Under the pieces are notes generated by a model that was not told the DNA's origin, made no database searches, and saw nothing but the letters and a program-made list of their open reading frames with translations. The position numbers and the translations under genes were made by a program. This document shows positions 13,259 through 58,067 of a stretch of DNA of 64,000 nucleotides, in pieces (position 1 is the first letter of the stretch; each line of letters opens with the position of its first letter). This DNA comes from Chloroflexota bacterium (GTDB lineage Bacteria; Chloroflexota; Dehalococcoidia; Tepidiformales; Tepidiformaceae): NCBI GenBank assembly GCA_026702615.1, contig JAPPBY010000012.1, positions 1-64,000 on the forward strand, in the 5' to 3' direction.

Positions 13259-13671
13259 ACGTGCAGGTGGGTGATTCGATACCGGAGTGGGTGATGGAGA
13301 GCGTGCGTCCCGAGCGGATGCGCACGATGGCCGCGATCCTGCGCGACCCCAATCCCGTTCACTGGGACCGCAAGGCCGTGGCGGCGCTGCCGTTCGGGCT
13401 GGGTGAACGGACGATCAACCAGGGGCCGCTGGGACTGAGCTACATGCTCAACATGCTGATGGACTGGGCCGGGCCGACGAGCGTGCGGCGCGTCACGGTG
13501 CGCTTTCCCAAGGTGGTGCTGGACGGGGACCACATCACGGCCGGCGGCCGCGTAACCGCCATCCGCGAGGAGGACGGCGTGCGCCTGGCGGACTGCGAAA
13601 TCTGGCTGTCGCGGGAGGGCGAGTCGCCGAGCCTTGAGGGCACGGCCACGGTGGCGCTCCCGGAGAGCTAG
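13255..13671 (+). CDS. MaoC-like hotdog dehydratase, second half
   Basis: A 138-residue hotdog protein with the hydratase signature region ILRDPNPVHWDRKAV, where Asp and His match the MaoC D-x4-H pattern. The ATG at 13255 sits in an ATGA overlap with the previous gene's stop, which decides the start. C-terminal strands (VRFPKVVLDGDHITAGGRVTA) match the second half of a hotdog. It is the probable catalytic partner of 12794-13258. It most likely hydrates or dehydrates a CoA-linked intermediate made by the nearby oxidoreductases; this is inference. Confidence 0.8.
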   Translation: MNVQVGDSIPEWVMESVRPERMRTMAAILRDPNPVHWDRKAVAALPFGLGERTINQGPLGLSYMLNMLMDWAGPTSVRRVTVRFPKVVLDGDHITAGGRVTAIREEDGVRLADCEIWLSREGESPSLEGTATVALPES

Positions 13672-15013
13672 CGGACTGCTCCCCGACGCCTCACCACTGA
13701 GCCGTTTCTGGCGGCGGGCGCGGCGCGCCTACTACGGCTGGTGGGTGCTGGCGGCGTCCGTCGTGTCGGTCGCGCTCGTCGCAGGCACGTCGTTCTGGTC
13801 GTTCGGGCTGTATATCGACCCGCTCGAGCAGGAGTTCGGGTGGTCGCGCTGGGCGGTCTCCGGCGGGTTCTCGATTGCCCTGCTGGTGGGGAGCGTTGCC
13901 TCGCCGCTGATCGGGCGCGGGGTCGACCGCTACGGTCCGCGCCGGGTGATCCTGCTCGGGGCGGTGCTGACGGCAGGGAGCTTCCTGCTGCTGGCGACGA
14001 CGACTGAGCTCTGGCAGTGGTTCGTCTACCAGTCCATCGCGGCGGTGTTCCGCAACATGATGTTCTTCATCCCCTTCCAGACGCTGGTCTCGCGCTGGTT
14101 CGACCGGCGGCGGGGGCTGGCGGTGGGGATCCTGGGGACGGGCTTCTCGATGGGCGGGTTCGTGGTAGTGCCGATCCTGCAGGCCGTGATCAACGCGGTG
14201 CAGTGGGAGGGCTCGTTCGTCTTCTCGGCGATCGTGACCGTGGCCGTCATCGCGCCGCTCTCGCTGCTGCTGATCAGGGACCACCCCTCGGACATGGGGC
14301 TGGAGGTCGATGGCGACGCGCAGCCGGAGGGGAGGTCCGCGGGGCCGGCCGTGCTGACAGGCCTGACGGACCGGCAGGCGTTGCGAACGCCGCTTTTCTG
14401 GGTGATCGCGTTCGCCCTGATGGTCTTCTTCTTCGGGATGTTCGGCTGGACCGCGCACGCGGTCCCGTACTACGAGTCGGTGGGCTTCTCGAAGTGGTGG
14501 GCGGCGCAATTGCTCGCCATCGCCGCGGGGAGCGGCATCATCACGCGCCTGGTGTTCGGCTACGTGGCCGACCGCATCCCCCGGATCGAGGTGGCGGCGA
14601 TGGCGCTCTGCGCTTGCCTGACGCTGTCCATGCTCGTGTTGCTGGTGACCGGCGGGAGCGTGGTCGGCGTGGTCATCTTCCTGGGTTTCTGGTTCGTGGG
14701 ATCGAGCGGCGGGCCGATGATCGAGCCACTGCTGACCTCACGCACGTTCGGCATGGCCTACTTCGCCTCGATTCTCGGAGCGCTGGGGCTGGTCTCGCAG
14801 AGCGGGCAGATCGTGAGCCCCATCATCGCGGGCGCGATCTTCGATGCGACGGGCGAATACGACTGGGCGCTGGTGATGTTCGCGTGTTCGATGGGGCTGT
14901 CGCTGCTGCTGTACTGGCTGGCGTGGAAATTGCCCCGCCCCGAGCTGCCGGTCGTCTCGGTCGTAACAAGCGCTGACGGGGGCGGGCAGGCGAGGCGGTC
15001 GGCGGAGGCGTAA
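13634..15013 (+). CDS. Major facilitator superfamily transporter (OFA/MCT-like)
   Basis: A 12-helix secondary transporter. MFS landmarks include the loop motif DRYGPRRVIL, the helix FWSFGLYIDPLEQEFGWSR and the second-half GYVADRIPRIEV. It is clearly paralogous to the next gene. The only canonical start in frame is the TTG at 13634, inside the previous gene. Alignment with the paralogue's MAQYWRR points instead to LSRFWRR, which begins with CTG at 13697. Resemblance to oxalate/formate or monocarboxylate transporters is by eye only. Confidence 0.88.
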   Translation: MRARPRWRSRRASGLLPDASPLSRFWRRARRAYYGWWVLAASVVSVALVAGTSFWSFGLYIDPLEQEFGWSRWAVSGGFSIALLVGSVASPLIGRGVDRYGPRRVILLGAVLTAGSFLLLATTTELWQWFVYQSIAAVFRNMMFFIPFQTLVSRWFDRRRGLAVGILGTGFSMGGFVVVPILQAVINAVQWEGSFVFSAIVTVAVIAPLSLLLIRDHPSDMGLEVDGDAQPEGRSAGPAVLTGLTDRQALRTPLFWVIAFALMVFFFGMFGWTAHAVPYYESVGFSKWWAAQLLAIAAGSGIITRLVFGYVADRIPRIEVAAMALCACLTLSMLVLLVTGGSVVGVVIFLGFWFVGSSGGPMIEPLLTSRTFGMAYFASILGALGLVSQSGQIVSPIIAGAIFDATGEYDWALVMFACSMGLSLLLYWLAWKLPRPELPVVSVVTSADGGGQARRSAEA

Positions 15014-15026
15014 GGGAACAGGCACC

Positions 15027-15032
15027 TAGAAT
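15027..15032 (+). promoter_or_regulatory. -10-like box placed for leaderless transcription of the second MFS gene
   Basis: TAGAAT lies 7 nt before the ATG at 15040, and no ribosome binding site is seen between them. Confidence 0.4.
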
Positions 15033-15039
15033 CCGTCGG

Positions 15040-16290
15040 ATGGCCCAGTACTGGCGGCGGCTGCGGCATGCCTACTACGGCTGGTGGATGCTCGCCGCGT
15101 CGGTGGTGGCGGTGGCGCTGGCGGCGGGCATTTCGTTCTGGTCGTTCGGACTTTATGTCGACCCTTTGGAGAGCCAGTTCGGGTGGTCGCGGGCGGAGGT
15201 TTCGGGAGGGTTCTCGGTCGGGTTCCTGGCGAGCGCCATCGCGGCGCCGCTCATCGGGTGGTGGATCGACCGGTACGGTCCCCGGCGGGTCATCCTGATC
15301 GGCGCGGTGCTGACAGCCGCGAGCTACGTGCTCCTGGCCGCGACGAGCGAGCTGTGGCAGTGGTTCGTGTATCAGTCCATCAACGCCGTGTTCCGCCAGA
15401 TGATGTTCTTCATCCCCTTCCAAGCGCTCATCTCGCGCTGGTTCGACCGGCGGCGAGGGCTGGCGGTGGGGCTGCTGGGGACGGGGTTTTCGATTGGCGG
15501 ATTCGCGGTCGTCCCCATCATGCGGGTCGTGATCGACGCGGTGCAGTGGGAGGGGTCGTTCATCGTGGCGGGCATCGTGATCGTGGCAGTGTTCGTGCCG
15601 GTCTCCCTCCTCCTGGTGCGCGACGACCCCTCGGACGTGGGAGCGGAGGTGGACGGCGACGCGACACCTGCAGATCGCCCGGTGGCGCCGCGCGTCCTCA
15701 CGGGGGTGACGGTGCGGGAGGCGCTGCGATCACCACTCTTCTGGGTGGTCTCGGGAGCGCTGACGGCCTTCTTCTTCGGGATGATCAGCTGGATGGTCCA
15801 TGGCATCCCCTACTACGAATCGGTGGGCTACTCGACGGAGCGGGCGGCGCTGCTCTTCTCGATCCAGGCAGGGGGCGGCGTGGTGGCGCGCCTGACGTTC
15901 GGCTACCTCGCGGACCGTATCCCCCGCATGGAAGCGGCGGCGGTGGTGGTGGCCATGTTCCTTGCGGGGGCGTTCGCGACGCTGCTGCTCACGGACGGGA
16001 GCATCATCGGAATCGGCATCTTCCTCGTGTTATTCGTCGTGGGATCGAGCGGGGGGCCGATGATTGAACCGCTGCTGCTGACGCGCTCGTTCGGGCTGGC
16101 CTCTTTCGGGGCGCTGCTCGGCATCATCCAGGTCATCTCGGCCCTGCACCTGGCGAGCCCAATCATCTCGGGGGCGATCTTCGACGCGACCGGAAACTAC
16201 GACTGGGCGCTGGTGATGCTGATAGGCGCGATGGGGCTGTCGGTGGTGTTGTTCTGGGTGGCCTGGCGACTGCCACGTCCCCAGTACTGA
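15040..16290 (+). CDS. Major facilitator superfamily transporter (paralogue of the preceding gene)
   Basis: A 416-residue, 12-helix MFS permease. It shares with its neighbour long identical runs such as AYYGWW, FWSFGLYVDPLE and DRYGPRRVILIGAVLTA, so the pair is a tandem duplication that has diverged. The second half shows GYLADRIPRMEAAA. Its ATG start is well supported and sets the expected start of the neighbour. It has its own possible promoter (TAGAAT, 7 nt upstream), so it need not depend on the upstream gene. Substrates are probably organic acids, by weak resemblance to MCT-type carriers. Confidence 0.9.
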   Translation: MAQYWRRLRHAYYGWWMLAASVVAVALAAGISFWSFGLYVDPLESQFGWSRAEVSGGFSVGFLASAIAAPLIGWWIDRYGPRRVILIGAVLTAASYVLLAATSELWQWFVYQSINAVFRQMMFFIPFQALISRWFDRRRGLAVGLLGTGFSIGGFAVVPIMRVVIDAVQWEGSFIVAGIVIVAVFVPVSLLLVRDDPSDVGAEVDGDATPADRPVAPRVLTGVTVREALRSPLFWVVSGALTAFFFGMISWMVHGIPYYESVGYSTERAALLFSIQAGGGVVARLTFGYLADRIPRMEAAAVVVAMFLAGAFATLLLTDGSIIGIGIFLVLFVVGSSGGPMIEPLLLTRSFGLASFGALLGIIQVISALHLASPIISGAIFDATGNYDWALVMLIGAMGLSVVLFWVAWRLPRPQY

Positions 16291-16295
16291 ACGGG

Positions 16296-16859
16296 CTAAC
16301 GGGCCGGCTGCTCCGAAGGCACGAACTCCGCCATCAGGGTTGGGCCCCAGACAACCGCGCCTCCATCGTCGAAGTCGAAGAGGCTGAGGCGGTCGCCGGC
16401 GATGGGGTCGTCGGTGCCGAGGGCGACGGGGAGTTTCTGGGTGCTCCACTTCGACATGTCGAGCATGAGCTCGACGATCTGGGCCTCGGTGAAGTGGGCC
16501 TGGACCTGCTCGCGGAGCTCATCGCTGATGGCGCCGGGAGCGGTTACGAAGGCGTCGGTGAGGCGGAGGGCGACCTTCTGGTGCTCGGGCAGGTCGCTGT
16601 CCTCGTAGTGGTCGATCTTGGCCGCCATGTCCTCGTCGAGTCCTGCATCCCGGGCAACGCCCAGGCGGAGGGACATTCAGGTGAAGCACTGGTGCTGGCG
16701 CGCGCAGCGCAGCCGCACCAGCTCGGTGGTAACGGGATCGAGGCCGCTCAGGCGCACAACGGCGTCCTGGTAGGCGCCGATGGCGGCGCCCAGTCCGGGG
16801 GCAACGGGGGCGGTGGGGCCGGCGGGTTCGGGCAGGCGGCGCTCACGTACGGAAGTCAT
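16296..16859 (-). CDS. CMD/AhpD-like protein with probable selenocysteine (in-frame TGA, CxxU)
   Basis: Reading from 16859, 60 codons lead to RCARQHQCFT, then TGA (16677-16679), then MSLRLGVARDAGLDEDM and 126 codons in the same frame to 16296. Together they make a 187-residue carboxymuconolactone decarboxylase-fold protein. The TGA falls where this family has the second cysteine of its redox CxxC, giving Cys58-x-x-Sec61. A hairpin with a GUU loop begins 11 nt after the TGA, as in bacterial SECIS elements. CMD/AhpD proteins with CxxU are known selenoproteins. Neither half alone is a complete domain. It overlaps the upstream CMD gene by 4 bp. A nonsense mutation is the alternative. Confidence 0.8.
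16649..16665 (-). ncRNA. SECIS-like hairpin downstream of the in-frame TGA
   Basis: On the minus strand CCUGGGC-GUU-GCCCGGG folds into a 7-bp stem (one U-G pair) with a 3-nt GUU loop. Eleven nt separate the UGA from the stem. A lower helix GUCC/GGAC can form around a symmetric internal loop. The loop G and U and the spacing match the apical part of bacterial SECIS elements such as that of E. coli fdhF. Confidence 0.65.
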
Positions 16860-17329
16860 GCCGTGTTCTCCTTGGGCGCGAGGACCGTTCGCAGGCCGAG
16901 CGCCAGACGCTGGTGTTGATCGAGGGCGAGGAGGGCGCTGACGAATGCCTGCACCTCTCCGGGGCTGAAGTGTTCGAGCAGGGCGTCGACATCGCCCTGC
17001 GTGACGCCGGCGACATCGCCGACGAACTGCTCGGTGAAGGCGAGGCAGGCGCGCTCGCGGTCGCTAAAGAGGGGCGAGTCAGGCCAACCGGCGATGGCGG
17101 CGGCCTTCTCGGGATCAACGGGAGCGCCGGGGGCGGCTCGGGCGGCCTCGCGGTCGTCGGCCTGGAGGCTGGCGATGCGGAGGCGGCAGAGCTCGAGGAC
17201 CTCGGGGTCGAGGGCCTTCCACAGCTCCCCATGCAGGTTCGTGATGACATCGCGGACCTCGGGGGCGAAACGGGCGAGGCGCTCGTCGAGGTCGGGGGCA
17301 AGGAGGCCGGGTTGGCCGGTGTCTGCCAT
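16856..17329 (-). CDS. CMD (AhpD-like) protein lacking the CxxC pair
   Basis: A 157-residue protein of the carboxymuconolactone decarboxylase fold. The helical core reads ERACLAFTEQFVGDVAGVT followed by GEVQAFVSALLALDQHQRLALGL. The family's redox CxxC is absent; the equivalent region reads LCRLRIASLQADD with a single cysteine. It probably works with the next gene, which carries CxxU, and the two overlap by ATGA. A TACCGT box (17336-17341, minus) lies 6 nt before the ATG, suggesting leaderless transcription. Confidence 0.78.
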   Translation of the reverse strand: MADTGQPGLLAPDLDERLARFAPEVRDVITNLHGELWKALDPEVLELCRLRIASLQADDREAARAAPGAPVDPEKAAAIAGWPDSPLFSDRERACLAFTEQFVGDVAGVTQGDVDALLEHFSPGEVQAFVSALLALDQHQRLALGLRTVLAPKENTA

Positions 17330-17391: not shown

Positions 17392-17397
17392 GTGGGC

Positions 17398-17946
17398 ATG
17401 CCGGAGAACGAACGGATTCCCGCGCCGCTCATTGTGGAGGCGCTGAAGGCGGCGTTCCGCGGGCAGCGGGAGGCTCCGGCAACGGAGGGCGAGCCCCTCG
17501 GTTGGGTGCTCTCCGTGCCGGATACGCACCAACGCAGCGTCATCGCGGAGTTGGAGGGCGATAACGAGCTTCGGCTGCTGACCTGCTCGACCGAGGACGA
17601 GGCAAACGCGATCGCGGCGGGGCTGTACATCGGCGGGGCGGAGGTGGCGCTCATGATCCAGCACGCGGGCCTGTACGCCTCGGTGAACACCCTCCGGGGG
17701 GTAGGGCTGGACGGGGGCGTGCCCCTGTTCGCACTGGTGGGGCTGCTGAGTCGCGAGCCGGAACTGGAACCGGAGGACTCGCCGCGTTCGATGGTGCGGT
17801 TCGCAGGGCCGCTCATGGACACCTTCGACGTGCCGCACGCGCTTCTCGAAACGCGGGACGACCTCGGGCTCATCCCGGAGTACTACGCATTGAGCCGGGA
17901 GCGGTCGGGGCCGGCGGTCGTGTTCGTCGGGCGGGAGACGGCCTGA
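17398..17946 (+). CDS. TPP-dependent decarboxylase, alpha (PYR) subunit; sulfopyruvate/phosphonopyruvate decarboxylase-like
   Basis: A 182-residue protein equal to the N-terminal (pyrimidine-binding) domain of TPP enzymes. The pattern LLTCSTEDEANAIAAGLYIGG supplies the conserved glutamate that activates thiamine diphosphate. It is followed by ALMIQHAGLYASVNTLRG, with the glutamine-histidine pair seen in sulfopyruvate and phosphonopyruvate decarboxylases. The next gene, overlapping by one base (TGATG), supplies the other domain. The split-subunit form resembles ComD/ComE, but the true 2-oxo acid substrate is unknown. The ATG at 17398 is preferred to a GTG two codons earlier. Confidence 0.82.
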   Translation: MPENERIPAPLIVEALKAAFRGQREAPATEGEPLGWVLSVPDTHQRSVIAELEGDNELRLLTCSTEDEANAIAAGLYIGGAEVALMIQHAGLYASVNTLRGVGLDGGVPLFALVGLLSREPELEPEDSPRSMVRFAGPLMDTFDVPHALLETRDDLGLIPEYYALSRERSGPAVVFVGRETA

Positions 17947-18515
17947 TGCGGCCGGAGGATGCGCTGCGGGCAATCAACGAGGCGCGGGGCGACGCGCTGG
18001 TGGTGCCGACGATGACGGCGGTACCGGCCTGGCGCACGATCGCGCCGGAGGCGCCAAGCGTGGCCTGCGTCGGCTTCATGGGAGGCGCGTCGTCGCTGGG
18101 GTTGGGGCTGGCGCTGGCCCAGCCGGAGCGGCGGGTGGTCGTGCTCGACGGGGATGGGTCGCTGCTGATGCAGCTCGGCTCGCTGGCGACGGTGGCGGGA
18201 GCGGCGCCGGCGAACTACACGCACGTACTGTTCGCGAACGGGGTGTACCAGACATCGGGGAGCCAGGGGATTCCGGCATCGGGATCGGTCGATTTCGCGG
18301 GGATGGCGGAGGCGGCGGGATACGCGTTCACCACGCGCATCGACACGCTGGAGGAACTGCGCATCCGTTTGCCGGAGCTGCTGAGCGTACGGGGGCCGGT
18401 GCTGGTGGAGCTGGCGGTGGAGGAGGCGGAGCTGACCCCGATGACCGCGCCCGGTGGGGATCCCCTGCGCGTGCAGGTCGAGCGGTTGCGGGAGCGGCTC
18501 GCCAGCGAGGAGTGA
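17946..18515 (+). CDS. TPP-dependent decarboxylase, beta (PP) subunit; sulfopyruvate decarboxylase-like
   Basis: The diphosphate-binding half of a split TPP decarboxylase (189 residues). The metal/TPP motif reads VVLDGDGSLLMQLGSLATV and continues to HVLFANGVYQTSGSQ, matching GDG-x(~25)-N. GFMGGASSLGLGLALA is the typical glycine-rich segment before it. It overlaps the alpha subunit by one base, which implies coupled translation and a stoichiometric complex. It may act in organosulfonate or organophosphonate metabolism, or on another branched 2-oxo acid; no other gene here settles that. Confidence 0.82.
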   Translation: MRPEDALRAINEARGDALVVPTMTAVPAWRTIAPEAPSVACVGFMGGASSLGLGLALAQPERRVVVLDGDGSLLMQLGSLATVAGAAPANYTHVLFANGVYQTSGSQGIPASGSVDFAGMAEAAGYAFTTRIDTLEELRIRLPELLSVRGPVLVELAVEEAELTPMTAPGGDPLRVQVERLRERLASEE

Positions 18516-21451: not shown

Positions 21452-21593
21452 GGGTAGGGCTCCTCGGAGTGAAGTGGCGCGTAGTGTGCGGCGGCGGGAG
21501 ATGGTTCGCCAGCGGCAAGCCGCATCCTGGGCCCGCGCCAACGCCGCGAAAGTGGCAGAATCCGCCAGAGACCTCATCGAGGGAGACCGACGC

Positions 21594-22949
21594 ATGACGA
21601 CAGAGAGCGCGGCAAGCGACTACACGGAGATGATCAACGCGGTGGCGGAGTGCCCCGTGAACCTGGAGGACGTGGACCTCTTCGAGCCCGGCGCGCAGGA
21701 GCACTGGGCGGATGCCTACAAGATCCTCCACGCGGAATCGCCCGTGCAGCGCATCCCGGGCGAGGGCAGCACGCCTGACACCGACGGCTTCGTGATCACG
21801 AAGTACCAGGACATCTACGACATCGTGCGTGACCCATGGACGTTCCCGCAGCCCGGCTTCGCCGGCGCGGAGGGGAACAGCACGGCGGGCATGAGCACGG
21901 AGGACGGGGAGGCGAGCGCGCTCGCCGACGCGATGGCGCTGAACACGCTGCGGCCCAACCTGGAACTGCACAAGGCGCACCGCATCGAACTGACCGATCC
22001 GTGGGTGGGAGCAACGGGCGCTCCGCGCCACCGCCCAATGGTCGAGAAATTTGTCGACCAACTGATCGACGAGTGGATCGACCGCGACCCCGCGGAGATC
22101 GAGTTCGTCGAGGAGTTCGCGGCGCCGCTCCCGCAGCTGGTGATGACGACGATCCTGGGGTGGCCGCTTGAGGACCTGGACATCCTGCGCAAGTGGGGCC
22201 AGGCGCAGGTGCGGCGGTTCGTCTACGGCAAGGGCCACCGCAACCTCATGTCGGACGAAGAGGAGCTGGAGAACGCCAAGGATCTCGGCGACTTCATGGC
22301 GTACGTCCAGGAGCAGGTGACGCACAAGCGGGAGAACCCCGGCGACGACATGACCAGCTTCCTGACGCAGGTCACCTACCAGGCGATGAACCGCAAGCTG
22401 ACCGACAACGAGGTGATCGGCGTGCTGTTCGGGATGCACATCGGCGGTCTCGAGACGACGCAGTACGCGATCGCGGCCGAGGCGCAGCTGCTGGCGGAGA
22501 ATCCCGCGCTGTTCCAGGAGCTGAAGGCGGACCCCTCGAAGGTCCGCTTCTTCGCCGAGGAAGGAATGCGCATCCACGCGCCCACGCAGGGTCTCTCGAC
22601 GCGCATGGCGGCGAAGGACGTGGAGATTCGCGGGATGCCGATCCCGAAGGGGTCGATCCTGCACCTGCGCTACGGAGCGGCGAACCTGGACGACGAGGAG
22701 TTCGGCTGTCCGGCGGACGTCGACCTGGCGCGCCCGAACACGGGGCGGCACATGACGTTCTCGCAGGGCATCCGGGTGTGCCCGGGGGCGGGCATCTCGC
22801 GCCTCGAGCAGAACATCGCCTGGGAGAGGCTGACGCAACGGCTGGACACGCTCGAGTTCATCCCCGGCAAGAACGACTTCCGCCACCAGCCCGGCATCAT
22901 GCTCGGGCTGTGGGAGCTGCACATGCAGTTCACGAAGGCCGCCGGCTAG
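21594..22949 (+). CDS. Cytochrome P450 (type A of the cluster)
   Basis: A soluble bacterial class I P450 monooxygenase of 451 residues. The I-helix reads IGGLETTQYA, the K-helix ExxR is in EEGMRIHAP, and the heme loop is FSQGIRVCPGAGISR with Cys as the axial ligand. The start at 21594 has a GGGAGA upstream and begins ahead of the CPVNLEDVDLFEPGAQEHW segment that it shares with the P450 at 28504, its paralogue. It begins a same-strand run of P450, small protein, P450, P450 and ferredoxin, likely one functional unit. Confidence 0.95.
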   Translation: MTTESAASDYTEMINAVAECPVNLEDVDLFEPGAQEHWADAYKILHAESPVQRIPGEGSTPDTDGFVITKYQDIYDIVRDPWTFPQPGFAGAEGNSTAGMSTEDGEASALADAMALNTLRPNLELHKAHRIELTDPWVGATGAPRHRPMVEKFVDQLIDEWIDRDPAEIEFVEEFAAPLPQLVMTTILGWPLEDLDILRKWGQAQVRRFVYGKGHRNLMSDEEELENAKDLGDFMAYVQEQVTHKRENPGDDMTSFLTQVTYQAMNRKLTDNEVIGVLFGMHIGGLETTQYAIAAEAQLLAENPALFQELKADPSKVRFFAEEGMRIHAPTQGLSTRMAAKDVEIRGMPIPKGSILHLRYGAANLDDEEFGCPADVDLARPNTGRHMTFSQGIRVCPGAGISRLEQNIAWERLTQRLDTLEFIPGKNDFRHQPGIMLGLWELHMQFTKAAG

Positions 22950-22962
22950 GGAGGCGGATCCC

Positions 22963-23241
22963 GTGCGCGACGAACGGGACCATCCGAGGAATTCCGGGGC
23001 CGGAAACGCCGACGCTCCGGCGGCGGAGCGACCTTTCCGGAAGCCACCGCCACTGCACGGGCGGGAGTCGCACATCCGCATCTTCGACGCCGACAACGAG
23101 GCGCGGAGGGTGTACGGAGAGACGCAGCGGTCGCGGGACGGCTCGCTCCCGCACGAGGAGCACGGTCCGAGCGCGGTGCTGAAGGCGCTCGATCCGTTCT
23201 GGACGCGGGGCATCATCCCCGAGGACGAAGTCGAGCCCTAG
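22963..23241 (+). CDS. Small hypothetical protein between P450 genes
   Basis: A GTG-started reading frame of 92 residues fills the gap between two P450 genes, 13 bp after one and 22 bp before the next. GGGAGG lies just upstream of the GTG. The protein is charged and predicted soluble, with a proline-rich first third and a segment HGRESHIRIFDADNEARRV. No family was recognised. Its tight fit in the run and plausible ribosome binding site favour a real gene, although a relic is possible. Confidence 0.5.
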   Translation: MRDERDHPRNSGAGNADAPAAERPFRKPPPLHGRESHIRIFDADNEARRVYGETQRSRDGSLPHEEHGPSAVLKALDPFWTRGIIPEDEVEP

Positions 23242-23263
23242 AGTTCCCCAAAGGAGACACGCA

Positions 23264-24616
23264 ATGACGGCGACAGAGGAGTCCTCGGCGTTTGCCGATG
23301 CCATCCGGGAGCAACTCAAGCTGGCGATTGAGCCGCAGGAGTTCGATAGCGACGAGTTCCAGCGGAACCCGTTCCCGCTGTACAAGCGGCTGCGCGACCA
23401 CCACCCTATCTACCAGGACCTGTTTCACAAGCGCTGGGTGGTGAGCCGCTACGACGACATCGTGGCCGTCTTCCAGAACAACGACGACTTCGACCGGGCG
23501 GCGTACGACCCGAAGGGGGAGTACGAGTTCGGGAAGAAGCAGGTGTTCGGCCCGAACATCCTCGAGTACGGCAACAGCGACGAGCACCGCTTCCTGCGCA
23601 ACGTGGTGGCCGACCAGTTCGTGGGGAACCGGCTCGCCGGTTTCCTGCCGTTCATCGAGCAGATTGCACGCGAAATGATGGGGAAGATCTGGGAGAAGTC
23701 GACGGACGACATCGCCAAGGGCTTCTCGGACACGGGCGAGGTGGAGCTGGTCAGCCAGTTCACGACGCAGTTCCCGATCCGCGTCATCTCGAACATGCTC
23801 GGACTGCCGCGCGCGGACGAGGACACGTTCGTGCGCTGGTACCAGCACCTGATCGTGGGACTCGGCTTCGGCGGCGAGTACTTCGCCAAGGGGATGCAGG
23901 CGCGGAACGAGATGTGGGACTACCTGGACCCGCTCATCCGGCGCGCCGAGGACAACCCCGGCGAGGACCTGATCTCGCGCATCGTGCACGCGGAGTTCCG
24001 CGGGCAGCGCATGACCGTAGACGAGATCAAGGGATTCATCGCGCTCCTGCTGGCGGCGGGCGGGGACACGACGGACAAGGCGATCGCGAACATGTGGTAC
24101 CACATGCTGTACACGCGGCCGGACCAGTTCGAGAACGAGGTGCAGCGCGATCCCAGCCTCTGGACCAACGTGTTCACGGAGATGATGCGCTACGACCCGG
24201 TGGTGCACGGCCAGGCCCGGCACACCACGCGGGAGATCAAGATCCACGGCGAAGTCATCCCCGAGCGGGCAGTGGTCTCGCTGATGCTGGGGGCGGGCAA
24301 CCGGGACGAGCGCGTGTTCAAGGATCCGGACACGTACGACATGCTGCGGGACGACCTGCACATGGGCCGCGAGCTGCGTTCGGGGCGCTACCCGGACGGC
24401 AAGCATGGGCACCTCGGCTTCGGGATGGGGCAGCACTTCTGCATGGGCTACGCGATGGCGCGGCAGGAGGCGATCATCGCCTGCACGCGGCTGGCGGAGG
24501 CGATGAAGAACCCGCGGCCCAAGTTCCCGACGCACGAGGGGATCACGTCGCCGAACATCGGCTCGGGAGGCTTCCGCGCGCCGAAGGAGCTCTGGATTCA
24601 GTTCGACGTGAACTAG
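23264..24616 (+). CDS. Cytochrome P450 (type B of the cluster)
   Basis: A 450-residue P450 nearly identical in layout to the next gene. The I-helix reads LLAAGGDTTDKA, the K-helix ExxR is in TEMMRYDPVV and the heme loop is HLGFGMGQHFCMGYAMARQ. AAAGGAG lies 8 nt before the start. It shares long runs with the protein at 24690-26039 (for example NILEYGNSDEHRFLRNVVAD), so the two arose by tandem duplication. Electrons probably come from the small ferredoxin at 26065. Substrate is unknown. Confidence 0.95.
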   Translation: MTATEESSAFADAIREQLKLAIEPQEFDSDEFQRNPFPLYKRLRDHHPIYQDLFHKRWVVSRYDDIVAVFQNNDDFDRAAYDPKGEYEFGKKQVFGPNILEYGNSDEHRFLRNVVADQFVGNRLAGFLPFIEQIAREMMGKIWEKSTDDIAKGFSDTGEVELVSQFTTQFPIRVISNMLGLPRADEDTFVRWYQHLIVGLGFGGEYFAKGMQARNEMWDYLDPLIRRAEDNPGEDLISRIVHAEFRGQRMTVDEIKGFIALLLAAGGDTTDKAIANMWYHMLYTRPDQFENEVQRDPSLWTNVFTEMMRYDPVVHGQARHTTREIKIHGEVIPERAVVSLMLGAGNRDERVFKDPDTYDMLRDDLHMGRELRSGRYPDGKHGHLGFGMGQHFCMGYAMARQEAIIACTRLAEAMKNPRPKFPTHEGITSPNIGSGGFRAPKELWIQFDVN

Positions 24617-24651
24617 GGCCTACCGGAAGCGCCTGTCGGTTCGGGATGTCT

Positions 24652-24657
24652 TAGGCT
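24652..24657 (+). promoter_or_regulatory. -10-like box before the third P450 gene
   Basis: TAGGCT lies 32 nt before the ATG at 24690, in the 73-bp gap after the preceding P450. It suggests that this P450 and the ferredoxin may also be transcribed separately. Confidence 0.35.
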
Positions 24658-24689
24658 ACGCACACGCACGTACCGACAGGAGCGAGCCG

Positions 24690-26039
24690 ATGACGGCAAC
24701 CGACGAATCCACCGCGATGGCCGACGCCATCAGAGCGCAGTTGGCCCTCGCGATCGAGCCGCAGGAGTTCGACGGCCCGGAGTTCCGGAAGGACCCGTTC
24801 CCGCTCTACAAGCGGCTGCGCGACCACCACCCGATCTACCAGGACCTCTTCCACAACAACTGGGTGGCCAGCCGGTACGACGACATCGTCGCGATCTTCC
24901 AGAACAACGACGACTTCGACCGAGCCTCGTACGACCCGAAGGGGGACTACGAGTTCGGGAAGAAGCACGTGTTCGGGCCGAACATCCTCGAGTACGGGAA
25001 CAGCGACGAGCACCGCTTCCTGCGGAACGTCGTGGCCGACCAGTTCGTCGGGAACCGGCTTTCGGCGTTCCTGCCGTTCATCGAACAGATCGCGCGCGAG
25101 CTGATGGGCCAGATCTGGGCGAAGTCGGCGGACGACATCGCCAAGGGCTTCTCGGATACGGGTGAGGTCGAGCTCGTCCGCCAGTTCACGAACCAGTTCC
25201 CGATCCGGGTCATCTCCAACATGCTCGGATTGCCGCGCGAGGACGAGGACATGTTCGTGCGCTGGTACCAGCACCTGATCGAGGGGCTGGGGTTCGGCGG
25301 CGAGCACTTCGCCAGGGGGATGCAAGCGCGGAACGAAATGTGGGAGTACCTGGACCCGCTGATCCTGCGCGCCGAGGACGCGCCCGGCGAGGACCTGATC
25401 TCGCGCATCGTGCACGCGGAGTTCCGCGGGCAGCGCATGAACGCGGACGAGATCAAGGGGTTTATCGCGCTCCTCCTGGCAGCGGGAGGCGATACGACGG
25501 ACAAGGCGATCGCGAACATGTGGTACCACATGCTCTACACGCGTCCGGACCAGTTCGAGGAAGTGAAGAAGGACGGGGAGCTCTGGACCAACGTCTTCAC
25601 GGAGATGATGCGCTACGACCCCGTGGTCCACACGCAGGGACGGCGCACGACGCACGAGATCAAGATCCACGGCGAGGTGATCCCCGAGCGGGCCAACATC
25701 ATCATGTACCTGGCGGCGGGGAACCGGGACGAGCGCGCCTTCAAGGACCCGGACACCTACGACATCTTCCGCGACGACCTGCACATGGGGCGCGAGCTAC
25801 GCTCGGGCAGGTACCCGGACGGCAAGCACGGGCACCTCGGTTTCGGCATGGGCCAGCATTTCTGCATGGGCTACGCGATGGCGCGCCAGGAGGCGATCAT
25901 CGCCTGCACGCGGCTCTCGGAGGCGATGAAGAACCCGCGGCCGAAATTCGCCGACCACCCGGGCATCACGTCTCCGGTGATGGGCTCAGGGGGCTTCCGC
26001 GCGCCGGAAGAGCTCTGGATCCAGTTCGACGTCAACTAA
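24690..26039 (+). CDS. Cytochrome P450 (type B paralogue)
   Basis: A 449-residue P450, the tandem duplicate of 23264-24616. It has the same I-helix (LLAAGGDTTDKA), K-helix (EMMRYDPVVH) and heme loop (GFGMGQHFCMGYAMA). Differences cluster in the N-terminal substrate-recognition region and before the K-helix, where this copy is one residue shorter. An ACAGGAG lies upstream of the ATG. A ferredoxin gene follows after 25 bp, probably its redox partner. No ferredoxin reductase is encoded nearby. Confidence 0.95.
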   Translation: MTATDESTAMADAIRAQLALAIEPQEFDGPEFRKDPFPLYKRLRDHHPIYQDLFHNNWVASRYDDIVAIFQNNDDFDRASYDPKGDYEFGKKHVFGPNILEYGNSDEHRFLRNVVADQFVGNRLSAFLPFIEQIARELMGQIWAKSADDIAKGFSDTGEVELVRQFTNQFPIRVISNMLGLPREDEDMFVRWYQHLIEGLGFGGEHFARGMQARNEMWEYLDPLILRAEDAPGEDLISRIVHAEFRGQRMNADEIKGFIALLLAAGGDTTDKAIANMWYHMLYTRPDQFEEVKKDGELWTNVFTEMMRYDPVVHTQGRRTTHEIKIHGEVIPERANIIMYLAAGNRDERAFKDPDTYDIFRDDLHMGRELRSGRYPDGKHGHLGFGMGQHFCMGYAMARQEAIIACTRLSEAMKNPRPKFADHPGITSPVMGSGGFRAPEELWIQFDVN

Positions 26040-26064
26040 AGGCCTAGCAAGGACGGGGGAAACG

Positions 26065-26262
26065 ATGCGAGTCAAGGTCGATTTGAAGAAGTGCACGAAG
26101 AGCGGGGAGTGCTACTACAACCATCCGGCGCTCTTCCAGGTCGACAGCGAAGGCTTCCCCGTCATCCAGATGGACCCGCTTGAGGGCGAGGACATGGAGA
26201 TTGAGGCCGTGCAGGCCTCGGAGGTCTGCCCCGTCGAAGCGATCACGGTGGAGGACGAGTAG
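26065..26262 (+). CDS. [3Fe-4S]-type ferredoxin of a P450 system
   Basis: A 65-residue ferredoxin likely to pass electrons to the adjacent P450s. Its three cluster cysteines are visible in the spacing C-x5-C (KKCTKSGECY) and, near the C-terminus, CPVEAIT. The usual fourth cysteine of a 4Fe-4S cluster is absent, which marks the 3Fe-4S class common next to actinobacterial-type P450s. It resembles the ferredoxin at 30189-30386. GGGGGA lies before the ATG. Confidence 0.92.
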   Translation: MRVKVDLKKCTKSGECYYNHPALFQVDSEGFPVIQMDPLEGEDMEIEAVQASEVCPVEAITVEDE

Positions 26263-26283
26263 CCCGCCGCCGCCTTCCTTGAC

Positions 26284-27087
26284 TCAGTAGTGGATGGCGC
26301 GCCCGACGCCGCCGCCGGCGGCGATCGTGTCGCCGTGGATGGCGACTGACTTCGGCGAGGCGAGGAAGGCCACGACGCTGGCGATGTCGGACGCATCGAT
26401 GATGCGACGGACGGAGTTGCCCTGGGCCGCTCGTTCCGTGGCCTCTTCGACTGAGATGCCCTGCTCGGAGGCGCGGTGGGCCATGAGGTCGGGCATGCGC
26501 TCCGTCCAGGTTAGGCCGGGGTGGACAACGGTGACGTTGATGCCGTGGGGCCCGAGCTCGTCGGCGAGGTTCTTCGTGAGGGCGGCGACGGCGACGTTGC
26601 GCATGCTGCCGATGGCCGTTCCCGACTGGCGGGCAGCCATGCCGCTGATGTTGATGATGCGTCCCCAGCCGTTCGCCTTGAGGTGGGGAGCGGCGGCGCG
26701 GGCGCAGCGCAGGTAGCCCAGCACCTTCGTGTTCATCTCCTCCTCGAAGTTGGCGTCGGTCGTGCTCTCGAGGGTGGGAGTGGCGCCGGCGCCGCCACCG
26801 GGGCGGGCGGCGTTATTCACGAGGATGTCGAGGCGCCCAAGCTGCTCGACGGCGCTGGCGACCATGGCGTCGACGGCGGGGGTGCTGCCCGTGTCGCAGA
26901 CGATGGGGATGATGCGGCGGCCGGTCTCGGCCGCGAGTTCGGCGGCTGTCGCGTCGAGGGTCTCCTTCGTGCGGGCGGCGATGGCGACATCGACGCCTTC
27001 CTCCGCGAGGGTGCGCGCGATCGCCTTGCCGATGCCCTTGCTGCCCCCGGTAACGAGTGCGGCCTTGCCTTCCAGTTCGAGGTCCAT
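26284..27087 (-). CDS. Short-chain dehydrogenase/reductase with atypical active site
   Basis: A Rossmann-fold SDR of 267 residues. The cofactor motif TGGSKGIGKAIA and the NNAARPGG motif are clear. The segment after the catalytic serine region (INISGMAARQSGTAIGSMRN) lacks the YxxxK pair: the aligned positions read Gly and Asn. It may reduce a hydroxy/keto substrate by a modified mechanism, or be a binding or partner protein. It is downstream of an ABM-like gene (4-bp gap) on the same strand and converges on the P450/ferredoxin run. Confidence 0.85.
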   Translation of the reverse strand: MDLELEGKAALVTGGSKGIGKAIARTLAEEGVDVAIAARTKETLDATAAELAAETGRRIIPIVCDTGSTPAVDAMVASAVEQLGRLDILVNNAARPGGGAGATPTLESTTDANFEEEMNTKVLGYLRCARAAAPHLKANGWGRIINISGMAARQSGTAIGSMRNVAVAALTKNLADELGPHGINVTVVHPGLTWTERMPDLMAHRASEQGISVEEATERAAQGNSVRRIIDASDIASVVAFLASPKSVAIHGDTIAAGGGVGRAIHY

Positions 27088-27091
27088 GGCG

Positions 27092-27499
27092 CTAGCGGAG
27101 CGAGGCCCACCAGTCGGGCACGGCGACGCGCAGGATCTCGTCGTAGGTCCTGGCGATCTCGGGGGCGTCGGCGGGAACGTCCTGCTGGTTGGTGGGAGGC
27201 AGCGGGGAGGCGCCCTGTATGGGGTCGACCCACTCGATGCCCTCTTCCTCGATGACCTCCATCAGGGGCGGGGTGGCGTCCTCGTGGTGGTCGCTGATCT
27301 GGTGCTTGATGAGGAAGGTGTTGTAGTCGGGGAAGGAGAGGATGCAGTAGTAGCTGCGGGGCTCCTGCCCGCGCCACATCTCGTAGCGAAGAACATCGCT
27401 TTCGAGGGAATGGGTCTTCTCGTAGAGGTCCTTCTGGATCTCTTCGTAGCGGGCCTCCATGCCCTCCTTGACCTTGAGCGTGATGAGCACGGTCGCCAT
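27092..27499 (-). CDS. ABM/EthD-like dimeric alpha-beta barrel protein
   Basis: A 135-residue protein whose first 95 residues look like a dimeric alpha+beta barrel (MATVLITLKVKEGMEARYEE, then YYCILSFPDYNTFLIKHQ). These folds include small monooxygenases and polyketide-processing enzymes; no catalytic set is evident. The start at 27499 is chosen for the GGAGG upstream; the longer upstream reading is low-complexity. It is the first gene of a two-gene unit with the SDR, close to the P450 cluster, so a role in the same pathway is plausible. Confidence 0.7.
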   Translation of the reverse strand: MATVLITLKVKEGMEARYEEIQKDLYEKTHSLESDVLRYEMWRGQEPRSYYCILSFPDYNTFLIKHQISDHHEDATPPLMEVIEEEGIEWVDPIQGASPLPPTNQQDVPADAPEIARTYDEILRVAVPDWWASLR

Positions 27500-27578
27500 T
27501 GGGGCGTTCCTCCGGGTGTGGGGTCTGGCAGGCGGCACGATACGGCGGGGCGAGCGGAGGCGGCAAGGGAGGGGCAGG

Positions 27579-28373
27579 TCAGGGGCGGTAGCGGGTCCGG
27601 AAGCCCACGACAATGCCGAGCACGGCCAGGGCGGTAGCGAGCACGGCGAACACGTTCACGGCAATGGGGACCGCGCCGTGCGGGGTGGGGGCGAGGCCGG
27701 TGCCGGTGTCGCCGGGGGCGGGAGGGTCGGCGGGGATCAGGGGCATATATTTCCCACCGGGATAGCTGACGAGTGGCTCATAGTCCATGGCGAAGATGCT
27801 GACCGACTCCACATCCAAGTCAAAGTGCAGAGTCGCCTCGTAGTACGCCTGTCCGCGCCCTTCTTGTTCGTGCATGACCCCCTTGACAACCCAGAAGACA
27901 CCGGGAGTCGGAGCCGGAGTGTATTCGCCTTCAGTGAGGGCCACCCCTTCAACCGTGCAACGGGTTGCCCTGTACCTCGGCAGGTCACGCCAACTCTGCC
28001 TCTCTTCCCTCTGCTTGTTCAGCCACTGTGAGACGGAGCCGCACACCTCACGAGTGGCCTGTCCCATTGGCCACCAGAACACATACTCCAGTTCAGGGCC
28101 GGCGTAGTAGTCCCACGCAGACCCGACGAAGACTGCAGTCCTCCCATTCCACGACAACAGGCCATGGCCCTCCCATCGAGGCTCATCACTCCACCTTCCT
28201 TCACACTCGACTATCTCCAACTCCGGGTAGCCCTCTGCGAGACCCTCGAACCACTCGCACGGGGGAGACTCACCCTGGCCTTCTTGCGCGGTGACCCGCC
28301 CCGTGGCTCCTGCCAACATGAGGCCAGCGGCGAACAGCGCTCCCATGGCCAGCATCCAGGCTCGTGAGTTCAT
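27579..28373 (-). CDS. Secreted protein with signal peptide and C-terminal DTGTG-type membrane anchor
   Basis: No family was recognised. The N-terminus has a signal peptide (LAMGALFAAGLMLAGATGRVTAQ). The middle is a globular region with several cysteines (CEWF, CEGRW, CGSV, CTVE) and many aromatics. Near the C-terminus the motif GDTGTG is followed by a Thr/Pro hinge, a hydrophobic helix (INVFAVLATALAVLGIVVGF reads as AVNVFAVLATALAVLGIVVG here) and the basic tail RTRYRP. The same layout ends the protein at 37587-38162. A TACGGT box lies 8 nt before the start. Confidence 0.7.
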   Translation of the reverse strand: MNSRAWMLAMGALFAAGLMLAGATGRVTAQEGQGESPPCEWFEGLAEGYPELEIVECEGRWSDEPRWEGHGLLSWNGRTAVFVGSAWDYYAGPELEYVFWWPMGQATREVCGSVSQWLNKQREERQSWRDLPRYRATRCTVEGVALTEGEYTPAPTPGVFWVVKGVMHEQEGRGQAYYEATLHFDLDVESVSIFAMDYEPLVSYPGGKYMPLIPADPPAPGDTGTGLAPTPHGAVPIAVNVFAVLATALAVLGIVVGFRTRYRP

Positions 28374-28381
28374 GCGGCCGC

Positions 28382-28387
28382 ACCGTA
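28382..28387 (-). promoter_or_regulatory. -10-like box placed for leaderless transcription of the anchored protein gene
   Basis: TACGGT on the minus strand leaves 8 nt to the ATG at 28373, with no ribosome binding site between. Confidence 0.35.
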
Positions 28388-28446
28388 GCACCCGGATTGG
28401 CGAATTACACCGTCCGTTTGGGCCGATCTGCGGGTGTCGATACGGG

Positions 28447-28452
28447 TAGGAT
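28447..28452 (+). promoter_or_regulatory. -10-like box of the fourth P450 gene
   Basis: TAGGAT is set in GGGTAGGATTGG, which recurs exactly before the amidohydrolase gene (31984-31995). The P450 start is 51 nt downstream. Confidence 0.4.
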
Positions 28453-28503
28453 TGGCGGCACGAAATTCGGACTCAAGCGGCGAGCGCCGCGGGGAGGACA
28501 GCC

Positions 28504-29847
28504 ATGCAGCGAGCGACTTCAGATGCCCCACACGCGACGGGCCACCGCCAGGAGCAGGTCACCGGGTGCCCGGTCAATCTGGACGATGTCGACCTCTTCT
28601 CGCCGGGGGCGCAGGAGTACTGGTTCGACTCATACAAGATCCTTCACGACGAGGCGCCCATTCATAAAATCCCCGGCGAGGGGGCGATCCCCGGCTCCGA
28701 TGCCTACATCCTGACGAAGTACGACGACATCGCGATGGTCGTTCGGGATCCGGAGACGTTCGAGTTCTACAACGCGGCCGAGGGCGACGAGGCGGCGCAG
28801 GAGATCTTCCGGGAGAAGGGCTTCGGCACGATCACCGACACCTGGGACACGCTCCGCCCGAACCTGGAGGAGCACAAGCGCCACCGGATGGAACTCACGG
28901 ACCCCTGGGTGGCCCTGCCCGCGGCCGAGCGCCATACGCCCATGATCACGAAGGCCGCGAACGACCTGATGGACAAGTGGATCGAGAAGGGCGAGGTGGA
29001 GCTGGTGAAGGCCTTCGCGGCGCCGCTTCCCCAGATCGTGATCACGACGATCCTCGGCTTCCCTCTGGAGGACATGGGCAAGACGCGCATCTGGGAGGAG
29101 GAGCAGGTCAAGCGGTTCGTGTACGGCTTCAGCCACAAGAACCTGCTGACCCCGGAGCAGGAGAAGGCGAACGCGGAAGCGCTCGTCGCCTTCCAGCACT
29201 ACATCGGGGAGCAGATCGAGGACAAGCGGCAGAACCCCAAGGACGACATGATCACGTTCCTGATCAACGTCGAGTACGGGCCGGAAAAGCGAAGGCTGAC
29301 GGACCCGGAGATCGCGAGCGTCGTGTACGGGATGCACATCGGCGGGAACGAGACGACGCAGTACGCGCTCACGGCCGAGGCGATGCTGCTAGCGCAGCAG
29401 CCCGATCTGGTCGAGGAGCTGCGGGCGGACCGCTCGAAGGTGCGGTTCTTCGTGGAAGAAGCGCTGCGGCTGTACGCACCTACGCAGGGGCTCTCGACGC
29501 GCGTGGTGATGAAGGACATCGAGCTGCGCGGCGTCGAGATTCCGCGAGGTTCGATGCTGCACCTGCGCTACGGCGCGGCGAACCGGGACCCGGACCTCTG
29601 TCCGGCGACGGACTCGATCGACCTGACCCGGAAGAACCCGGGGCGGCACCTGACGTTCTCGATGGGTCCGCGGGTGTGTCCGGGCGCGGGGCTCTCGCGA
29701 CTGGAGCAGAACATCGCGGTGAACGTGATGCTCGACCGGCTCGACAACCTGCGGCTGGCGCCGCACAAGAACGACCTCACGCACCAGCCCGGGATCATGC
29801 TGGGGCTGTGGGAGCTGAACCTCGAGTTCGACCAGCGTGGCGCCTAG
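28504..29847 (+). CDS. Cytochrome P450 (type A paralogue)
   Basis: A 447-residue P450 paralogous to 21594-22949. They share CPVNL-DVDLF-PGAQE-W near the N-terminus. The I-helix reads IGGNETTQYA, the K-helix EEALRLYAPTQGLSTR and the heme loop FSMGPRVCPGAGLSR. GGGGAGGACAGCC precedes the ATG. A 108-residue protein follows after 18 bp and a convergent ferredoxin lies just beyond. It appears to be the outlier of the P450 cluster, set apart from the others by the SDR/ABM unit on the other strand. Confidence 0.95.
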   Translation: MQRATSDAPHATGHRQEQVTGCPVNLDDVDLFSPGAQEYWFDSYKILHDEAPIHKIPGEGAIPGSDAYILTKYDDIAMVVRDPETFEFYNAAEGDEAAQEIFREKGFGTITDTWDTLRPNLEEHKRHRMELTDPWVALPAAERHTPMITKAANDLMDKWIEKGEVELVKAFAAPLPQIVITTILGFPLEDMGKTRIWEEEQVKRFVYGFSHKNLLTPEQEKANAEALVAFQHYIGEQIEDKRQNPKDDMITFLINVEYGPEKRRLTDPEIASVVYGMHIGGNETTQYALTAEAMLLAQQPDLVEELRADRSKVRFFVEEALRLYAPTQGLSTRVVMKDIELRGVEIPRGSMLHLRYGAANRDPDLCPATDSIDLTRKNPGRHLTFSMGPRVCPGAGLSRLEQNIAVNVMLDRLDNLRLAPHKNDLTHQPGIMLGLWELNLEFDQRGA

Positions 29848-40398: not shown

Positions 40399-41565
40399 CT
40401 ACTCGCCCTCGAAGCGTCCTATGCTGCCGCCCGCCACGACAAAGCGGCCGGCGGCGCTGGTGAGGACATCGCGGACGCGATCGGGGTCGGCGGTGGTGAC
40501 GATGACCTGCTGGAAGATCTCGAAGGAATCGAGCACGCCGCGGCGGCGCTGCTCGTCAAGCTCGCTGAGGACATCGTCGAGGAGGACAACGGGCTCGTCG
40601 CCGAGGCAGGTCTGAAGGTAGGCGGCTTCGGCGAAGCGCAGGGAGAGGGCCGCGGTTCGGAGCTGGGCGCGCGAGGCGAAGGAGGCAGCGGAGAAGCCCT
40701 CGATCAGCACCTCGACATCATCCCGATGGGGACCGAAGAGCGTGACACCGGCGCCGATCTCGCGGGGGCGGCCATCGCCCAGGGTCTGCAGCATGCGGCT
40801 AGTCCATTCGGCCTCGTCGATGGGGAGGTCGTCCTCGACGGCTTCGCCGAGGGCGGGCTTGTACGTGAGGTCGATCGTCTCGGAGTCGTCGCTGAGGCGG
40901 GCCATCTGCTCGCGGGCGTACGGCACGAGCAGGCCGAGGGCATCGGCGCGGCCCTTCATGATGATGCCGCCGGCGTGGGCAAGCTCCTGATTCCAGAAGC
41001 CGAGCTCGGTGGGGGACGCTTCGCGGGCCTGGATGCGCTTGAGCAGCCCGTTCCGCTGCTGGAGGACGCGCTGGTAACGCTGCATGGCGCGCAGGTACCC
41101 GCGATCCACCTGGGAGGCCATCATGTCGAGGTAGCGGCGGCGGAGGATGGGCGGTCCGGCGACGACTTCGATATCGAGCGTGGTGAAGAGGACGGCAGCC
41201 AGCTCGCCGACGGCATCGGAGGTGCGCTTGGCGAGGCCGTTCACGCGGACGCGCTTCCCGGCACGCTGACCCTCGCCGCTGCGGCCGACGACGGCGACTT
41301 CGAGATTGAGGCGACCGGCGGCTCGCTGAACCTCGGTCTGGAGGCGGGCGACGGGGAACTCGGAGTCGAGCACATCGCGGCGGACAAGGTCGGAATCGCT
41401 GCTCGCGCGGCTCGAGCGGAGGGTGGAGAGGAGGTAGATGGCCTCGAGCAGGTTGCTCTTACCCTGGGCGTTCTCGCCAACGAAGAGGTTGAGGCCGCGG
41501 TCGAGCGACAGCTCGACCTGTGCGTAGTTCCGGAAGTTGGCGAGGTTGAGATCGGTGATGTACAC
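40399..41565 (-). CDS. recF: DNA replication and repair protein RecF
   Basis: An SMC-like ATPase that helps load RecA at gaps. Visible features are the N-terminus YITDLNLANFRNYAQ, Walker A GENAQGKSNLLEAI and the C-terminal Walker B VVLLDDVLSELDEQRR. The GTG at 41565 aligns with the usual RecF start; a longer frame extends to 41607. At about 388 residues it is normal. It is divergent from dnaN, whereas in most bacteria the order is dnaA-dnaN-recF on one strand. A minus-strand TATACT (41607-41612) may be its -10. Confidence 0.95.
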   Translation of the reverse strand: MYITDLNLANFRNYAQVELSLDRGLNLFVGENAQGKSNLLEAIYLLSTLRSSRASSDSDLVRRDVLDSEFPVARLQTEVQRAAGRLNLEVAVVGRSGEGQRAGKRVRVNGLAKRTSDAVGELAAVLFTTLDIEVVAGPPILRRRYLDMMASQVDRGYLRAMQRYQRVLQQRNGLLKRIQAREASPTELGFWNQELAHAGGIIMKGRADALGLLVPYAREQMARLSDDSETIDLTYKPALGEAVEDDLPIDEAEWTSRMLQTLGDGRPREIGAGVTLFGPHRDDVEVLIEGFSAASFASRAQLRTAALSLRFAEAAYLQTCLGDEPVVLLDDVLSELDEQRRRGVLDSFEIFQQVIVTTADPDRVRDVLTSAAGRFVVAGGSIGRFEGE

Positions 41566-41735
41566 GGCGTATCCAGCGTAGCCCCCCGCAGGGCCCGAGC
41601 GCGTCAAGTATAGAGGCCTTTACGTTATGGGGTTATGTCCCATCCGCGAGGAGCATGAAGAGAACTGCTTACGTGCCTACGCCCTCGGCGTTTGGGGGTA
41701 TAATCCCGGCCAACACCGAACAAGCGAGTAAACGG
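41566..41735. promoter_or_regulatory. Divergent recF/dnaN promoter region
   Basis: This is one of the AT-richer spots of the left half. A plus-strand TATAAT (41699-41704) lies 31 nt before the dnaN start and matches the -10 consensus perfectly, with no strong -35. A minus-strand TATACT (41607-41612) lies 41 nt before the recF start. No cluster of DnaA boxes was noticed, so this is not called an origin. Confidence 0.6.
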
Positions 41736-56479: not shown

Positions 56480-56572
56480 TGCTCACATTCCTCCGGTGCG
56501 TGGTCAGGAAACGGTGCGCGGGGACGGTCCCGCCTCCGGCGGCAGACTTGCAGGCCTGCTCATCTCGCAAAA

Positions 56573-56620
56573 GGTCGAAAACGAAAGGGTGGATAGCCTT
56601 TTTGCTAGCGCGTTTTGACC
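56573..56620. repeat. Long-loop inverted repeat GGTC(G)AAAACG ... CGTTTTGACC
   Basis: The arms GGTCGAAAACG and CGTTTTGACC match except for one bulged G and are separated by 27 bp. It lies about 95 bp upstream of the giant gene's start, in an AT-rich spot. It could be an operator or part of a promoter region. Confidence 0.35.
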
Positions 56621-56789
56621 GATTCTTGCGACTGGTTGGAATGGACATCTTGGCCTCGTAGGAGCGATGCAATTTGGTGTAACGTGAATTGACACTGGTA
56701 TGTGGTCACAAGCACCGGTCACTTCACCAATCCGGTCGCACCCGGTGGCTCGGCAGGTCGGCCAATGACCCCGGAATCGGAGCCTCGTC

Positions 56790-58018: not shown

Positions 58019-58067
58019 GGGCAGGCCCTCGCGATGCGCAACTCTCGTGGAGACCTGGGTTCTCCCC

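Follow-up and report, generated by a model that had tools for sequence, protein, structure and literature searches.

Selenoproteins of the CMD-like and AhpD-like type, in which selenocysteine (Sec) takes the second position of a CxxU motif, have featured in catalogues since the marine surveys (PMC2398784; PMC13188914). AhpD is reduced by lipoamide proteins (PMC8945050), and one of the residues of its proton relay is a His both in the M. tuberculosis protein and in PA0269. In addition, fused AhpD-like dimers have been described from Corynebacterium and Comamonas, in which a Cys-less N-terminal domain is joined to a CxxC-bearing C-terminal domain and which are relatives of the sestrins (PMC11429811). 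The literature that we searched, mostly outside subscription journals, held no relevant description of paired CMD selenoproteins or of Sec in the lineage considered here.

Here, we analysed a stretch of 64,000 nucleotides from a Chloroflexota bacterium (assembly GCA_026702615.1, contig JAPPBY010000012.1, positions 1 to 64,000), hereafter called the window. Since CMD-like CxxU selenoproteins have already been catalogued, the selenoprotein reading of the gene at 16296-16859 falls within a known kind. What is new is the Cys-less CMD partner gene that precedes this CMD-U gene wherever it occurs. The features of the locus are as follows.

16296..16859, minus strand: predicted CMD-fold selenoprotein gene, 187 residues including Sec61 (ATG 16857-16859, stop TAG 16296-16298)
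16677..16679, minus strand: UGA codon for the predicted Sec61, second residue of C58-x-x-U61 (TGA in 9/9 genus orthologues)
16686..16688, minus strand: Cys58 codon, opening the redox motif (invariant across 31 aligned homologues)
16722..16724, minus strand: Glu46 codon, 12 residues ahead of Cys58, corresponding to the Glu of the AhpD proton relay (alignments and description of PA0269; not invariant in paralogues)
16665..16667, minus strand: Arg65 codon, where AhpD and PA0269 have the His of the proton relay (Arg nearly invariant in the family)
16649..16665, minus strand: putative bSECIS apical stem-loop CCUGGGC-GUU-GCCCGGG, 7 bp (GUU loop 16656-16658)
16856..17329, minus strand: partner CMD-fold subunit, 157 aa, without CxxC/CxxU (upstream in 9/9 genomes; AhpD-like fold match)
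16868..16873, minus strand: RBS-like AAGGAG in the 3' end of the partner gene, before the selenoprotein ATG (from sequence)

When the TGA is read as a residue, the two halves of the gene on the minus strand become the one CMD-fold frame that the first-pass annotation had proposed, with QCFT-U at residues 57-61, i.e. a CxxU motif (C58-F-T-U61). The Pfam CMD domain PF02627 covers residues 21-78 and spans the TGA (E 4.9e-7; 30.1 bits against a gathering cut-off of 23), and the predicted structure is of middling confidence (pLDDT 72). Standard ORF calling yields pieces of 60 aa and 126 aa, which is the misannotation as two genes that had been anticipated. This outcome, together with the ATG that opens the 126-aa half immediately after the TGA, is what could be said for an ordinary stop codon, be it between two short genes or in a gene disrupted by a mutation or a faulty assembly. 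However, an identical TGA occupies the same codon in nine separately assembled genomes of the genus, all Dehalococcoidia/Chloroflexi MAGs, whose orthologues are 76-99% identical. Codon comparison of these orthologues indicates purifying selection on both sides of the TGA; in the most divergent one, dN/dS is 0.145/0.409 ahead of the TGA and 0.118/0.535 beyond it. The orthologues hence read through the TGA into constrained codons, where an end of the homologues at this position would have spoken for a stop. Moreover, the CMD domain crosses the TGA, and relatives have Cys at the same codon. An ordinary stop is thus very improbable.

Every aligned homologue carries either TGA or Cys at the Sec position and nothing else, in agreement with the earlier placement of the TGA at the second Cys of the redox motif. 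A scan of 393 genomes of the class revealed no members of the window subfamily beyond the one genus; the nearest relatives outside it are about 37% identical and mostly TGA-bearing as well. The window's genome contains five CMD-like genes with a single in-frame TGA right after Cys-x-x, the one at 16296-16859 included. The four others lie on its contigs C2, C3, C38 and C31 (loci L041, L059, L060 and L061), and CMD-U genes are common throughout the class.

The window's own assembly (2.87 Mb in 38 contigs) was searched for the Sec machinery. SelB scored above its curated cut-off, SelA was found with an E of 6e-155 and SelD, whose own frame contains an in-frame TGA, with an E of 6e-104, while a tRNA-Sec with the anticodon TCA (UCA) reached 71 bits. 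All four components to which the first-pass annotation had pointed are thus encoded in the genome. An altered genetic code, with TGA standing for Trp or some other amino acid, would account for the open frame and for nothing beyond it. The adjoining partner gene terminates in TGA, the TGA of several paralogues is confined to the CxxC position and aligned with Cys, and the full Sec machinery is present; we regard such a code as having a negligible probability. The gene at 16296-16859 almost certainly encodes a CMD/AhpD-like selenoprotein, with Sec presumably inserted at the UGA.

A bacterial Sec codon is expected to be followed by a bSECIS hairpin, and a 7-bp stem with a GUU loop indeed begins 11 nt after the TGA, at the coordinates that had been reported (16649-16665). 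With its loop of 3 nt, a UGA-to-loop distance of 18 nt and an energy of −11.4 kcal/mol, it lies within the published bSECIS model (loop 3-9 nt, stem 4-16 bp, G in the first two loop positions, spacing 16-37 nt, MFE <= −7.5; PMC13188914). Fold energy as sole evidence was ruled out by the z of −1.0 obtained for a 51-nt fold of the hairpin region. An equally stable hairpin follows 2.6% of the in-frame codons in window genes and arises in 12.6% of synonymous re-codings, and an Rfam scan of the region returned no SECIS family match, just two chance-level ones. Since the stem is invariant in the window family and covariation is untestable there, we used synonymous conservation for this family and tested covariation in paralogues. 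The nine orthologues have 54 fourfold-degenerate sites in common, 11 invariant and 43 varying, and the six consecutive sites within the stem-loop, a region fixed by the first-pass annotation ahead of the test, are all invariant (hypergeometric p = 1.8e-5). The invariant loop codon GTT is a rare one (7/207 Val codons). Hairpins in 11 related TGA genes covary, with six of eight pairs altered on both sides; none of 500 shuffles equalled this value and slid controls failed the test. At the corresponding place in three Cys homologues, a comparable short-loop hairpin was not found. The hairpin exceeds chance because it is conserved at the codon level. The lower GUCC/GGAC helix, which had been described as part of the element, was discarded, as it is intact in only three of the nine orthologues, the three closest sequences.

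The family also offers a natural exchange of Sec and Cys. Genus g17 of the same family lacks both SelA and tRNA-Sec in 6/6 genomes at the thresholds used, and the homologue, found in two of them, has CxxC instead of CxxU. The TGA-bearing genomes of the family all possess selA and/or tRNA-Sec (14/14), compared to 0/2 of the Cys-bearing g17 genomes (Fisher p = 0.008). Loss of the machinery thus goes along with Cys at the codon of the homologous gene. SelA was not found in G039, a TGA-bearing genome outside the family that is 54% complete, and G018 has the Sec machinery, yet its homologue uses Cys. The homologues with Cys at the Sec position (L033, L034 and L037) all belong to paralogous subfamilies; a Cys-bearing orthologue of the window subfamily was not found, Cys being seen in paralogous subfamilies only. 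With this natural swap, the benefit of Sec can be compared directly between close genera that have or lack the Sec machinery.

What, then, is the role of the gene directly upstream? It ends in a TGA that shares bases with the start codon of the selenoprotein gene (ATGA). The first-pass annotation had called it a CMD protein without CxxC; the motif is indeed missing and a predicted model of the protein matches AhpD-like folds, but its own Pfam CMD score of 20.2 bits remains below the cut-off of 23. Pfam CMD matches 15 of 22 partner homologues at E <= 0.001. The partner lies directly upstream of the selenoprotein gene in all nine window-type loci, and at a second locus of the window's genome, on C2, the order is identical, partner then CMD-U. 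The window partner and the C2 partner share 34% identity with each other (E 3e-18), but no more than 26-28% with the catalytic proteins. Phylogenetic analysis separates the partners of the genus and family from the catalytic proteins as two clades (support 100/100), with the two paired catalytic lineages as sisters (89/85); the more distant G039 partner groups on the catalytic side. In the class scan, strong partner matches (>130 bits) comprised 24 genes in the genus and in G008, G011, G017, G025, G026 and G039, each followed directly by a catalytic CMD gene according to the listed coordinates, a count that leaves out three more strong matches in G022, G023 and G027. The redox motif of the partners has been lost stepwise: G039 retains C-x-x-D and the C2 type C-x-x-E, and the window type has no such motif, and E46, C48, R49, D137 and R141 are invariant in partners.

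The selenoprotein might nevertheless act alone, as a peroxidase or adaptor that forms homo-oligomers like AhpD, next to an upstream CMD gene that is unrelated or a decaying duplicate. Solved AhpD-like relatives are homotrimers or homohexamers, and the three other CMD-U paralogues of the window's genome have no second CMD gene within 1.5 kb. We consider this unlikely, as the partner is under constraint with residues invariant across two subfamilies and adjoins the catalytic gene in 9/9 genomes while forming one old clade. The split redox pair suggested in the first-pass annotation holds insofar as the pair is real and conserved; since the partner lacks any CxxC or CxxU, however, a catalytic plus a non-catalytic subunit fits better. 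Partner and CMD-U thus probably make up a constitutive two-subunit enzyme, with both proteins presumably assembled into a hetero-oligomer.

The proposed mechanism would start with SelB, which, directed by the hairpin just past the UGA, would bring Sec-tRNA to this codon, so that the product carries E46-x11-C58-x2-U61-x3-R65. By analogy with the family, C58 and U61 would make up a redox couple of the selenenylsulfide/dithiol type, in which Sec would be the reactive nucleophile. The selenoprotein would be the catalytic subunit of the two-gene unit, and the overlapping upstream gene, its redox residues lost, would probably contribute its half, without catalytic function, to a hetero-oligomeric CMD ring. 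Of the Glu-Cys-Cys-His proton relay of AhpD, the Glu and both Cys have counterparts, namely Glu, Cys and Sec, and the His is replaced by Arg65. AhpD peroxidase chemistry can therefore not be assumed, and as the AhpD spacing is kept but Arg stands for His, the protein is best termed AhpD-like, short of AhpD in the strict sense.

AhpD itself draws on lipoylated E2 and Lpd and supports AhpC; for the present protein, hints on the electron source come from the genomic setting of the paralogous pair of the C2 type. Its operon encodes an AcoX-like kinase, a lipoyl-domain E2 acyltransferase, a dihydrolipoamide-dehydrogenase-like protein and Rieske proteins, an arrangement found across several genera, Cys-bearing ones included. 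At L084 (5257-10663), a paralogous CMD pair is accompanied by genes for an AcoX-like kinase, lipoyl E2, Lpd and Rieske proteins and for an unannotated 172-aa protein, which has no Pfam match and is conserved in several genomes. We favour lipoamide as the reductant, given the known reduction of AhpD by lipoamide proteins, and the position of the paralogous pair beside lipoyl E2 and Lpd suggests a likely path from NADH via Lpd and lipoamide to CMD-U, from which electrons might pass to a peroxide or to some other organic compound that serves as a substrate in the surrounding catabolic cluster. The window itself contains no lipoyl E2 or Lpd genes, such genes flanking the paralogous pair only, and the transfer of this electron source from the paralogue to the CMD-U of the window can be put forward only tentatively.

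The window pair sits among catabolic genes and a pathway substrate is therefore also possible. The selenoprotein could then act on such a compound and not on peroxides, e.g. in a reductive dehalogenation like that of the CMD-fold debrominase Bmp8 or in a decarboxylase-like step. The catabolic cluster of the window, with its P450s, LLM oxidoreductase, enoyl-CoA hydratase and ThDP decarboxylase, would be compatible with this, Bmp8 structures are among the fold matches, and the names of some orthologue MAGs suggest sponge sources. Bmp8, however, is just 15-16% identical and ranked below AhpD-like proteins. A selenoprotein devoted to a pathway substrate appears quite unlikely to us, and both specific versions, a Bmp8-type dehalogenase and a gamma-CMD decarboxylase, are of low probability.

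Several other genes of the window deserve mention. Two tandem MFS transporter genes (13634-16290; about 64% mutual identity) adjoin the CMD pair in most genus members. Divergent from the pair, a split alpha/beta ThDP decarboxylase resembling sulfopyruvate/phosphonopyruvate decarboxylases (17392-18515) is kept beside it in 8/9 genomes. Several cytochrome P450 genes follow at 21474-29847, among them a near-duplicate tandem pair at 23264 and 24690. A large serine recombinase (42836-44410; Resolvase, Recombinase and zinc ribbon) adjoins a likely dnaN (41655-42875, judged from sequence only) and a RecF/SMC-like ATPase gene (40399-41607), and two very long minus-strand ORFs of 2653 and 1957 aa occupy 48518-63941.

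Taken as a whole, the explanation comprising Sec insertion, the redox couple and the two-gene unit, with a lipoamide-fed electron path as its tentative part, is very probably right. With somewhat less than balanced confidence, we further suggest that the unit represents a CMD redox enzyme not described before, in which a Sec-containing catalytic subunit and a dedicated redox-dead CMD subunit would form a hetero-oligomer, the unit being older than its two operons, fed by lipoamide and changing from Sec to Cys or back as the Sec machinery is lost or gained. As a selenoenzyme that would possess a pseudo-subunit of its own, the pair lends itself to testing. With standard annotation, the gene would be cut in two or shortened and its active site lost, and at least four more CMD genes of the window's genome would fare likewise.

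Compared to known systems, the gene shares PF02627, the CxxU motif, a downstream bSECIS and Cys homologues with the catalogued CxxU selenoproteins (GOS AhpD-like 1/2 and the CMD-like PF02627, NF041238/NF041047 of the 2026 catalogue; PMC2398784, PMC13188914). In contrast to these, the window subfamily is limited to a single one of the searched genera, carries Arg in place of the relay His and is encoded together with a Cys-less CMD partner. The selenoprotein passes none of the NCBIfam equivalog cut-offs, and membership in NF053654 (YciW-related (seleno)protein) was rejected at 32.7 bits against a curated cut-off of 310. The AhpD-like proteins PA0269/Atu0492 (2ijc, 2o4d, 7xw1, 2gmy) are the best sequence and fold matches for both subunits and share the spacing Glu-x11-Cys-x2-(Cys/Sec), but have Cys for Sec and His for Arg four residues on, and are single-gene homo-oligomers. 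The lipoamide-linked AhpD of M. tuberculosis is likewise a CMD redox protein associated with E2 and Lpd, both of which the paralogous operon encodes; the window, however, has neither, sequence similarity is low and the donor would be assigned by analogy. Finally, the fused AhpD-like dimers show the same order, a redox-dead CMD domain followed by an active one, whereas the window unit consists of two separate overlapping genes, the active one with selenocysteine. The pair may thus be viewed as a two-gene equivalent of these fused dimers, which have been proposed as forerunners of the sestrins.
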